64,000 bases of DNA from Candidatus Nitronauta litoralis (GTDB lineage: Bacteria; Nitrospinota; Nitrospinia; Nitrospinales; Nitrospinaceae), in assembly GCA_015698285.1 (NCBI GenBank), contig CP048685.1, forward strand, positions 1-64,000. The letters are read 5' to 3'. Made by a program: the position numbers and the translations under genes. How positions within the stretch are numbered: the stretch's first letter is position 1; the number at the start of each line of letters is the position of its first letter. Below the pieces are notes generated by a model. That model ran no database searches. It had not been told where the DNA came from and saw nothing but the letters and a program-made list of their open reading frames with translations. Positions 52,543 through 56,236 of the stretch are shown piece by piece.

Positions 52543-54243
52543 TTAAAATCTCATTCGGCTCAAAACCGCCATCACTTCATGCAATCGCGGTAAAGAAACC
52601 AGCCCATTATTCCAGGGTAACAGACAGGACACATTGTTTTCCATTTTGGAAAGAAGTGATTTCACACCAGCGACACTGGATCCTTCATTTTTCTCAAGCC
52701 ATTCCTTTAATGCATGTAAAATCCAACCGCATGCTTCCAGTTGCCCCGTCTCGACCAATTGCTCAATCTCGTGCGTGTCAATCTCGTTTATCCCAAGGAG
52801 CAGGGAATCGCAACCTCGGGACGAAATAAACACTTCTCTCTTTCCTTTGCGAAATTTTAAATTCTCAGGTGAATGCCTGCCAGGTATTAAATCGGGAAAT
52901 GGCATGGGGGTTTCCCTGTTTCGTCCAGTTGGCATAGCTACTGCAATTTTTCTCGCCTCTTCACTGACAAGGTGTGGTTGAAAGTTTTCCATAGCAACAA
53001 CCGTATCAGCCACATCAAAATAATCTCCCGAACCACCCATAACAAGGACAGCACTGATATTGAATCGTTCGTACAATTCCCGTACGCGATCAATGAAGGG
53101 TGTGATCGGCTCCTGTTCTTTGTGAATCAAAGCCTGCATACGGGCATCCCGGATCATAAAATTGGTTGCACAGGTGTCTTCATCCAGAAGCAGCAACTTG
53201 CATCCAGATTGAAGTGACTCCACAATATTTACGGCTTGCGAGGTGGAACCGCTCGCGTTTTGTGTTGAGAAGGTTTCAGTAGATTCAATTCCTGGCAAAT
53301 TATCGAGGAATGGGGAGATATCAACTTTATTCACAAAACGTCCATCTTCAGCACGCACCTTGACAGCCGTAGGGTTAACGGCAACCTGTTCACGTCCGTC
53401 ACCCGGAATATGCGGATACACTGCATTCTGCAGAGCTTTTAATAATGTGCTTTTCCCATGAAACCCGCCGCCTACCAGAAGCATGATGCCCTTTAAAATT
53501 GGCATGCCTCGAATTTCACCTGCATTGGGCAATGTCACCCTGTCTGAAAGTTTTTCCGGTGCGATAAACGATTGGCACTCTTTCAGGGGTAAATCGGAAT
53601 TGCCCGCTGCACGGGCCAGGCAGGAACCATCAGTAACAAACCCGACCCAACCCTTCTCGTTCAACAACCCTTGCAAACAATGAAAATCTTCAAAGGTCTC
53701 CGTATGTAGCTTCAAGGCAGGCATGTCCAGCGTTTCAGCAGCAAGACTCTGTCGCAAAATACCGGCAACATCCTCTTCAAATAAACGCCAGCATTCCAGA
53801 CCCAGTATACGCCTTCCTTCTGCCGGTAAACCGACAAAGAACACCAACTCGATTTGATTTTTAGAAACTGTTACGGCTGACCTTTTAATTATTTTCTGAG
53901 ATGGGAAAAGCGCAGTGATGATCCCACTTTTTCCAGCACCCTTTGGCTTTATTTTCCTTGTCAAAACAGCTTTATGAAATCGACGAAGCAAAAAGTCTTC
54001 TACAGCAATCCTTGACAAAGCCGTATCACACACAGCATCCGGTAATCCACTCAACTTGAAAGGTAAATTTGCTGTCATACGCGAGGGTTCCGCAAAAGCA
54101 TCTCCCTGCACATGCTCAAACTTTAGCTGGATAGGACCAAAAGCCCAATCTGTTCCCTGCAAATCCTTATAAGCTTTGTAACCGCGACCCTCTACTCTTG
54201 TGAGCCGCTGCTTCAGGGTTTCAGGCGCTTCAATATTCATCAT
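52543..54243 (-). CDS. ABC-class ATPase (COG3044/PF09818 type)
   Basis: A 566-residue soluble ATPase of the ABC class without transporter partner. Walker A is GGGFHGKST (about 258-266), preceded by MPILKGIMLLV. Walker B is KLLLLDEDT followed by CATNFMIRD, and an ABC-like signature region lies between (FSTQNASGSTSQA). It fits the COG3044 'predicted ATPase of the ABC class', whose function is not settled. The ATG starts immediately after the stop of the radical SAM gene, so the two are coupled. Confidence 0.9.
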   Translation of the reverse strand: MMNIEAPETLKQRLTRVEGRGYKAYKDLQGTDWAFGPIQLKFEHVQGDAFAEPSRMTANLPFKLSGLPDAVCDTALSRIAVEDFLLRRFHKAVLTRKIKPKGAGKSGIITALFPSQKIIKRSAVTVSKNQIELVFFVGLPAEGRRILGLECWRLFEEDVAGILRQSLAAETLDMPALKLHTETFEDFHCLQGLLNEKGWVGFVTDGSCLARAAGNSDLPLKECQSFIAPEKLSDRVTLPNAGEIRGMPILKGIMLLVGGGFHGKSTLLKALQNAVYPHIPGDGREQVAVNPTAVKVRAEDGRFVNKVDISPFLDNLPGIESTETFSTQNASGSTSQAVNIVESLQSGCKLLLLDEDTCATNFMIRDARMQALIHKEQEPITPFIDRVRELYERFNISAVLVMGGSGDYFDVADTVVAMENFQPHLVSEEARKIAVAMPTGRNRETPMPFPDLIPGRHSPENLKFRKGKREVFISSRGCDSLLLGINEIDTHEIEQLVETGQLEACGWILHALKEWLEKNEGSSVAGVKSLLSKMENNVSCLLPWNNGLVSLPRLHEVMAVLSRMRF

Positions 54244-55101
54244 TTAAACCGAGGAGTAATTTCCGGCAAATCCTGCCGCAGAAATTCCTGTTGGCAGAAA
54301 ACGCCTTGCAATAGAAGCAATTTCATCACGATAATTGAGTTGCACCGAAGCGGGCATCAATGCTTCCATTTTTTCGGGCAATACAGTTTTCAAGGTTCGT
54401 GACCCGGTGGCAGTACCATCCCCTTCTATAAAATGATCCACGACAACAGCCTGGGCACCGGCTCGTGCGAGTTTTCTAAAAAACCTTTCCGGGTGTTCCA
54501 TTGGCAAAAGTGGAGCCATGCACACCACAACAAATAAACCGGCATCGGATAAGTTGTGGACGGCTTCAATCCTTTCCTCCACACCACAGGCCTGCTTATT
54601 CAAACCCTGTATATGCTCGCGATCCGTTTCTATGGAGATATGGACTCGCAGGTCCGTTTTTCCGGAGAGTGCCCTGATCAGGTCTTTGTCATCAAGGATG
54701 GATGTTGAATGTGTTTGCAGGATTAATTCTTCTGGCGGATTGTCGGTCAGGGCTTTTAACAACTGCCGGGTGATTCTGAATTTTTTCTCGGCAGGTTGCC
54801 AGGGTTCTGTTGAACTCGAAAAAAAAACTGAAAATGGACGGTCCCTTCGGTGGGCCCACCGTCTTTCCCTTTCACAAGTCTCTTTATAAACCCTGGCGGC
54901 GTTTGACTTCACTTCCAGAAAAGAGCCCCACCTTCTTCCGCGTGTAAGCCAGCCGTTCGATTGGACGTAACAGCCGGTCCCACACAAAGTATTGCCCAGG
55001 CCACAACCAATGTACGGATTGATTGAATGAGTACAAACAGGCTCCAGGAATCCCCCGGAACGTGTGAGTATGGATCGGCACTGGATTTGTTCAATGACCA
55101 T
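54244..55101 (-). CDS. SPL-like radical SAM protein
   Basis: A 285-residue protein of the spore-photoproduct-lyase-like radical SAM branch. NPYIGC opens the cluster region; the cysteines are C33, C40 and C44, spaced C-x6-C-x3-C instead of CX3CX2C. The usual radical SAM fold features (HSTSILDD, RVHISIETD) follow. No substrate is known. Its stop touches the start of the ABC-class ATPase gene, which suggests joint action. Confidence 0.85.
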   Translation of the reverse strand: MVIEQIQCRSILTRSGGFLEPVCTHSINPYIGCGLGNTLCGTGCYVQSNGWLTRGRRWGSFLEVKSNAARVYKETCERERRWAHRRDRPFSVFFSSSTEPWQPAEKKFRITRQLLKALTDNPPEELILQTHSTSILDDKDLIRALSGKTDLRVHISIETDREHIQGLNKQACGVEERIEAVHNLSDAGLFVVVCMAPLLPMEHPERFFRKLARAGAQAVVVDHFIEGDGTATGSRTLKTVLPEKMEALMPASVQLNYRDEIASIARRFLPTGISAAGFAGNYSSV

Positions 55102-55132: not shown

Positions 55133-55168
55133 AAGAAAAAAAGCCCCCCGGAAATTCTCCGGGAGGCT
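55133..55168 (-). terminator. intrinsic terminator
   Basis: On the minus strand a ten-pair GC-rich stem (AGCCTCCCGG with its partner) is followed by seven T. It ends the transcript of the tandem secreted pair (55199-56236). Confidence 0.9.
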
Positions 55169-55198: not shown

Positions 55199-55696
55199 TC
55201 AGGACTGAGGCTTTTCTCCAGACCACCATTTCCCCCATTTTACAGAGGAAATATTCTGGTCGAACAAGGGAGCCGCCTGGGAGTACACCTCAAAACCACC
55301 ATACCCATTCTGGCTTGGAACCGAATGCCAGACACCCTTAGGGAAATCCATCAAATCCTGTATCCAGACCTGCCGGTCGTCTGTTTTTCGAATCACCAGA
55401 AACCCGGCGTTTCCTTTAAAGTGCGGACGGGCGTAAAGCGTAACAATTCTTCCCGCCTCCCCATCAAGAGTCAAGGAATAACGCTTTTGTCCCTGAAAAT
55501 GATTGAAATCATCAATGCGTCCACGGTCCTCACCATGAGGGACATCGTATAAGGCGAAGTTACCGCCATAGGAATACCCCAATTCTCTCAAACCCTCTGC
55601 ATTGAGGATTAGTCCGCTCCGACCTTTGGCCCCGGAAGAAATCGGCAGGAATAACAAGATGCTCAACACAATTGCCAAAACCTTTGATTGCGTCAT
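55199..55696 (-). CDS. secreted paralogue B (unknown family)
   Basis: A 165-residue protein with a signal peptide. The C-terminal half (GFLVIRKTDDRQVWI, then NGYGGFEVYSQAAP and SVKWGKWW) is closely similar to the neighbour at 55724-56236; the N-terminal halves diverge. It looks like a small beta-rich secreted protein. A strong AAAGGAGA site precedes ATG at 55696. I do not recognise the family. Confidence 0.8.
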   Translation of the reverse strand: MTQSKVLAIVLSILLFLPISSGAKGRSGLILNAEGLRELGYSYGGNFALYDVPHGEDRGRIDDFNHFQGQKRYSLTLDGEAGRIVTLYARPHFKGNAGFLVIRKTDDRQVWIQDLMDFPKGVWHSVPSQNGYGGFEVYSQAAPLFDQNISSVKWGKWWSGEKPQS

Positions 55697-55723: not shown

Positions 55724-56236
55724 TTAGTGAGCACTTCCAGGAACTTCCTGTCCCCACCAGTGGCCCCACTTGACTGATGCAATATTTTGGCTGAATTGGG
55801 GAGCCGAAGCGTAGTATGCCTCGTATCCTCCGTATCCATTTTCAGGCGCACGTTTCACCCACTGGTTTGCCGGAATCGACTCGATTTCCGTTAGCCAGAT
55901 TTGTTTGTCATCCGTTTTTCTAATAATCAGGTATCCACGTTCCTTCCTGTAATCCACATTTCCGAACAAAGTGACCGTCGATCCAGGCTTACCACGCAAG
56001 GTGAACGTATAACGCCCCTGACAATTATTGTCACGATAATTGAAAAAATTAGGTTGATCCTTCCCTGCATGAAAATCGAGAAGGCTTTCGCAGACCGGGG
56101 TACGTTGCAAGGTATCTATTTCGAGAAGCGGTCCTTTATTCAAGACCAACTCCCCACGCATTTCAATCGCCTGAACAGGAAAAGCAAACAAAAGAGCCAG
56201 AATTATTGAGGGAACTACTCGAGATAATTTCGTCAC
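55724..56236 (-). CDS. secreted paralogue A (unknown family)
   Basis: A 170-residue protein with a signal peptide. The C-terminal half shares GYLIIRKTDDKQIWL, NGYGGYEAYY and SVKWGHWW with the next gene, showing a tandem duplication. Two cysteines are in the N-terminal half (PVCESLLDF and DNNCQG) that the paralogue lacks. GTG start with AAGGAG site. Both genes share one transcript and end at the same terminator. Confidence 0.8.
   Translation of the reverse strand: MTKLSRVVPSIILALLFAFPVQAIEMRGELVLNKGPLLEIDTLQRTPVCESLLDFHAGKDQPNFFNYRDNNCQGRYTFTLRGKPGSTVTLFGNVDYRKERGYLIIRKTDDKQIWLTEIESIPANQWVKRAPENGYGGYEAYYASAPQFSQNIASVKWGHWWGQEVPGSAH

Follow-up and report, generated by a model that had tools for sequence, protein, structure and literature searches.

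A radical SAM protein and an MRB1590-type ATPase encoded side by side in Nitrospinota probably work together, though each usually occurs alone

The gene pair and its setting

This study examined a pair of adjacent genes in a window comprising the first 64,000 nucleotides of contig CP048685.1, the single contig of the 3.92 Mb genome of Candidatus Nitronauta litoralis. The first gene specifies a radical SAM protein (rSAM) resembling spore photoproduct lyase (SPL), and the second an ABC-class ATPase (Table 1). As the preliminary description of this DNA had stated, the rSAM stop codon directly abuts the start codon of the ATPase gene, both on the minus strand and with no base between them. A terminator-like hairpin of 12 bp (z -3.4 against shuffled sequence) precedes the pair and sets it apart from the upstream gene as a unit of its own; the two genes are probably transcribed and translated together. 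Upstream of the hairpin lie two tandem, related genes for secreted-looking proteins (55199-55696 and 55724-56236, minus strand), which gave no Pfam match and whose members recur at the same place across the Nitrospinota order, while a convergent gene for an M1-family peptidase (PF01433; 50353-52536, plus strand) flanks the pair on the other side.

Table 1. Features of the rSAM-ATPase locus (positions in the window)
Feature	Position	Strand	Remarks
SPL-like radical SAM protein (rSAM)	54244..55101	-	285 aa; ORF; first gene of the pair
ABC-class ATPase, COG3044/MRB1590 family	52543..54243	-	566 aa; second gene of the pair
TAA/ATG ATG junction, zero gap	54238..54246	-	rSAM stop TAA at 54244-54246, then ATG ATG
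Intrinsic-terminator-like hairpin	55142..55168	-	between the upstream gene and the pair
Cysteine motif C33-x6-C40-x3-C44	54970..55005	-	presumed [4Fe-4S] ligands; in 'NPYIGCGLGNTLCGTGCYVQ'
Ser96	54814..54816	-	invariant; at the place of the SPL hydrogen-donor Cys140 by motif (alignment read against the SPL motif, not superposition)
Walker A region GGGFHGKST	53446..53472	-	G258, G260, H262, G263 and K264 identical in 62/62 aligned ATPases
Arg144	53812..53814	-	aligns with Arg199 in the RNA-binding pore of T. brucei MRB1590

Family membership, predicted fold and conserved residues

The COG3044-type assignment of the ATPase was borne out by three Pfam models, all scoring above their cut-offs: PF20446 for the N-domain (148.4 bits, cut-off 26.5), PF09818 for the P-loop domain, which stood in for COG3044 in the profile search (369.6, cut-off 23.2), and PF21117, MRB1590_C (51.6, cut-off 27). 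Proteins of the same family with solved structures matched over most of its length, both from Vibrio (5d6a, E 3e-111) and from Trypanosoma brucei (4yix, 4yiy and 4yj1, E ~1e-94). The earlier view that no function is known for this class needs some correction, as it includes the T. brucei protein MRB1590/KRBP72, a dimer-forming ABC ATPase that binds RNA and has a gated pore; Arg199 and Arg200 are important for this binding (PMC4538832). The trypanosome protein binds RNA and assists editing past a stem-loop (PMC4538832, PMC11754742); in vivo its ATPase is required and its own RNA binding hardly so (PMC11754742). It differs from the window ATPase in acting in mitochondrial RNA editing and in carrying a C-terminal Arg525-529 patch, a trypanosome-specific feature (PMC4538832). 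The counterpart of the first pore arginine, Arg144, was invariant in all 62 aligned ATPases; that of the second, Arg145, occurs in the window ATPase but is not conserved, being found in 10 of 28 proteins of the order. A bacterial function for COG3044/PF09818 was not found among the open-access titles and abstracts listed. To our knowledge no bacterial member of this ATPase family has been tested, neither the rSAM nor the ATPase family has an established bacterial role, and we know of no rSAM partner of MRB1590/KRBP72. No rSAM match was found among phages, and the ATPase was present on three unannotated faecal contigs in the same search. Neither protein matched a PADLOC anti-phage defence model, and a role in defence was rejected on this ground.

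The rSAM showed the features of its superfamily (three invariant cysteines, alternating strands and helices, and rSAM folds as best matches), yet it did not reach the cut-off of any curated family in the search, including PF04055 (29.4 bits, cut-off 29.5). The nearest named families, with E-values of 1e-19 to 5e-24, were PA0069, Rv2578c and mobile-pair-B (NF033668, NF038135, TIGR04470), but scores of 70-85 bits did not reach NCBIfam cut-offs of 360-430 (PA0069, 84.8/360; Rv2578c, 70.1/430; mob_pairB, 71.4/410), and those relatives that were read have the canonical C-x3-C-x2-C motif. An AF2 model built with 51 homologues (mean pLDDT 95.4) had three SPLs as its top Foldseek matches in the PDB (4fhc, 4k9r and 4fhg, TM 0.61-0.63), so the predicted fold is that of SPL (TIGR04070/PF20903), with which the protein also shares a tyrosine directly after the third cysteine. 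It scored 10 bits (E 0.33) against the Pfam SPL model, and no SPASM domain was matched in the profile search. C33, C40 and C44 were invariant in 58 aligned homologues and are the only conserved cysteines; no cysteine of any kind lies between residues 77 and 171. Two features exclude SPL itself as the identity of the enzyme: it lacks the C-x3-C-x2-C spacing of SPL, and it has no equivalent of the conserved fourth cysteine, Cys140.

The odd C-x6-C-x3-C spacing remarked on in the preliminary description is present, and it is widespread. When 84,980 species genomes were scanned, 55 homologous loci were recovered from Planctomycetota, Acidobacteriota, Myxococcota, Gemmatimonadota, Vulcanimicrobiota (Eremiobacterota) and others, and all of them had this spacing, an agreement that is partly selected in that the scan used the search pattern CG[VT]GC. 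Proteins found by similarity only, namely all 46 intact Nitrospinota proteins and the loci L208 and L212, had it as well; the bearers include organisms named Nitrospina, Nitrospinaceae and Nitrospinota. Because relatives with the canonical motif branch outside the C-x6-C-x3-C clade in the tree, the simplest explanation of the spacing is one derived change. It marks one widespread rSAM clade, not pairing with the ATPase. The expectation that adjacent-pair homologues would share the spacing was not upheld: unpaired homologues in many phyla have it, paired rSAMs of Myxococcota are canonical, and it was rejected as a mark of the pair. A search of the open-access literature for the motif found no paper.

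Several relatives merit separate mention. The protein of L170 (G184, Acidobacteriota; 1501-2388), 41% identical to the window rSAM, retains the x6 insertion and has aspartate in place of the third cluster cysteine (GCAYGRTLCGVPDYA), which is present in its nearest relative, L208; the aspartate may possibly be a non-cysteine ligand or the enzyme may be dead. A second SPL-like protein in the window's own genome (L204, 1713564-1714523 of the contig) has the canonical motif and scored 106 bits against TIGR04070, below the cut-off of 400. A plasmid of Staphylococcus saprophyticus (NZ_CP022057.1) carries a canonical relative in a DNA-alkylation-repair cluster, next to genes for a DNA glycosylase, Ada and a methylated-DNA methyltransferase.

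Linkage within and beyond the Nitrospinota order

Among 64 genomes of the order to which the window belongs, 32 hold both genes, 16 the rSAM alone (at a contig edge in G055 and G004), none the ATPase alone, and 16 neither. Most of the genomes in this study are MAGs, in which absence can reflect missing sequence. The two genes are adjacent in all 32 genomes that hold both, and the rSAM always comes first. The co-occurrence gave a Fisher p of 2.5e-6 with genomes taken as independent, uncorrected for phylogeny, and such genome counts are not counts of independent events. With start codons and neighbours assigned by simple ORF rules, the genes overlap or lie within 5 nt in 28 of the 31 intact pairs (gaps of -25 to +36 nt). 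Overlapping junctions persist despite identities of about 50-75% across the order. The constancy of the tight junction and the hairpin ahead of the pair indicate more than chance. The locus is syntenic, with gltX, a histidine kinase gene, the M1 peptidase gene, recG and relA around the pair, so that adjacency within the order represents one inherited event. Most genomes of the order share these surroundings, also those without the ATPase, where that gene alone is missing, and in their trees the paired rSAMs and the paired ATPases each fall into a single clade; the simplest account is thus that the order inherited the arrangement from its ancestor and that the ATPase disappeared on several occasions. 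Loss beside a retained rSAM is repeated, the tree calling for four changes or more, and in G020 the pair is retained next to a different downstream flank. The dependence is one-way: the ATPase never occurs without the rSAM, while the rSAM often occurs without the ATPase. In one genome (G060, contig C19, about 6.4-10.2 kb) the rSAM and ATPase genes both carry stops or frameshifts, as do the upstream gene and one downstream gene, those further out being intact; the joint decay was rejected as evidence of co-function because the neighbours decay too.

Outside Nitrospinota the ATPase was not found beside the window-type rSAM in any neighbourhood fetched. Of 44 genomes there with the window-type rSAM, 11 carry the ATPase elsewhere, and none of these 11 has the pairing. 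In Acidobacteriota the ATPase occurs in 23 of 198 genomes and the window-type rSAM in three, all of which also hold the ATPase, although they are apparently closely related and two were already known carriers; in Myxococcota, 53 of the 55 genomes with the ATPase (238 searched) lack the window-type rSAM. By these counts the two families are largely independent in occurrence. No rSAM-ATPase pairing was seen in 23 Acidobacteriota and 17 Pseudomonadota genomes with the ATPase, and no SPL-like rSAM neighbour was found at 20 Acidobacteriota, 16 Pseudomonadota and 8 other ATPase loci, the scan reaching up to about 5 kb upstream in the first two phyla. Neighbours of the rSAM outside Nitrospinota included none that is widely shared, neither a small precursor gene beside the rSAM nor DNA-repair genes next to the C-x6-C-x3-C clade were found to recur, and in other phyla the window-type rSAM overlaps by 4 nt with various unrelated genes, among them cellulase, rhomboid protease, DUF2079 and glycosyltransferase genes.

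In Myxococcota the ATPase was found downstream of a different SPL-like rSAM, one of the PA0069 family (NF033668, 451-459 bits, cut-off 360), about 30% identical to the window rSAM and with canonical C-x3-C-x2-C cysteines in the readable cases. Such a gene lies upstream of the ATPase, on the same strand and within about 4 kb, in 17 of the 55 genomes; in seven or eight of these it is direct, with no clear intervening same-strand gene and gaps of -1 to 516 nt. All 17 cases fall in one ATPase clade of 37 rows, and at 34 loci of this clade the PA0069-type rSAM is more frequent than any other neighbour (16 found by clustering, and a truncated copy besides), followed by an M1 peptidase (13). The arrangement resembles that of the window in ATPase family and gene order but differs in rSAM subfamily, cysteines, ATPase branch and spacing (-1 nt to nearly 4 kb). 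In both trees the Nitrospinota and Myxococcota groups stand apart, and since the Nitrospinota ATPases branch elsewhere than the Myxococcota clade, the second pairing represents a separate event. A rough chance estimate, not a test, which assumes one given family with 1-2 genes per 5000-gene genome, put a directly upstream position in the right orientation at a few in 10,000 per lineage, and such a find in one of about four further lineages at about 1 in 1000.

Two details of the Myxococcota loci are of separate interest. At L278 (5805-7499, minus strand) the reading frame of the PA0069-type rSAM near the ATPase contains a LAGLIDADG homing-endonuclease domain, probably an intein; the related Rv2578c family is intein-containing. 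An M1-family peptidase gene (PF01433; L281, 1-2673, plus strand) lies upstream of the pair on the same strand, and the presence of such a peptidase near the pair in both phyla could be coincidence.

Joint action and its alternatives

The preliminary description took the exact junction as an argument that the two products act together. On its own the junction says little, because the same type of rSAM tightly overlaps unrelated genes in other phyla, and it was rejected as proof; what speaks for joint action is the tight two-gene unit, adjacent in 32 of 32 genomes, and the independent pairing in Myxococcota. Adjacency limited to close relatives, with the families otherwise occurring independently, had been named as the outcome that would count against the idea, and this describes half of what was found: the window-type pair is confined to one order and both families are mostly apart elsewhere, while 17 of 55 Myxococcota genomes carry the other pairing. 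That the same gene order arose twice separately speaks for a functional link, and it is probable that the rSAM and ATPase work together, with DNA or RNA as the likeliest substrate, though each usually occurs alone.

An entirely different explanation is that the ATPase is a passenger: its gene would have come to lie behind that of the rSAM a single time, in the ancestor of the Nitrospinota, and would do no more than share its expression, and the Myxococcota case would be a second coincidence preserved by synteny. The conserved locus in each of the two phyla, the mostly unpaired state of both families, the packing of the rSAM against unrelated genes and the repeated ATPase loss all fit this explanation, which we consider quite possible if somewhat improbable; it sits poorly with two origins involving distinct rSAM subfamilies in the same order, with an ATPase never found without the rSAM in Nitrospinota, and with overlapping junctions maintained through such sequence divergence. 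Modification of a peptide or protein by a maturase and its ATPase is very unlikely. Many rSAMs are peptide maturases, but the fold of this one is nearest to SPL, and neither a SPASM match nor a recurring precursor gene was detected.

Joint action on a nucleic acid has two versions. In one, an SPL-like DNA repair, the rSAM would reverse or remove a lesion, and the ATPase would be a damage-recognition or remodelling factor. The closest solved folds, the relative in the Staphylococcus repair cluster and the occurrence of SplB-like rSAMs with ImuB-C and glycosylases (PMC3765255) point in this direction, against which stand the missing SPL motif and fourth cysteine and the lack of recurring repair genes beside the clade; taken singly, this version is unlikely. 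The other, to which we give an equally low probability, is modification or quality control of RNA (rRNA, tRNA or mRNA). It draws on RNA binding by MRB1590/KRBP72, which helps editing past a stem-loop, and on the conserved pore arginine, but no RNA-linked neighbours were seen, the second pore arginine varies in the order, and we know of no bacterial member that has been tested. The present evidence fits DNA repair and RNA modification alike.

The preferred reading is of an inherited unit carrying out radical chemistry on a nucleic acid, with the ATPase as an accessory clamp, a tentative proposal whose likelihood we place just short of even. The pair would have been inherited from the ancestor of one Nitrospinota order. 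With its arginine-lined pore, an ATPase dimer would grip and open the substrate, and the rSAM would direct a 5'-deoxyadenosyl radical at a base or sugar, leading to repair or modification. The ATPase, as an ATP-driven clamp or remodeller, would be accessory to the rSAM: no genome of the order has the ATPase without the rSAM, while the rSAM often persists alone. We infer in this that the proteins may cooperate physically or functionally, that nucleic acid may be the substrate, and that the rSAM may bind a cluster and use SAM chemistry. The fullest form of the idea, a two-part nucleic-acid repair or modification machine of SPL-like rSAM and MRB1590-type RNA/DNA-clamping ATPase, assembled at least twice independently (in Nitrospinota and Myxococcota) and with C-x6-C-x3-C ligands in the Nitrospinota rSAM, is doubtful as a whole.

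The C-x6-C-x3-C clade departs from the usual cluster motif in a way that can be tested. The recurring gene-order link provides a handle on both families, and predicts that bacterial MRB1590-type ATPases would assist radical chemistry on nucleic acid.
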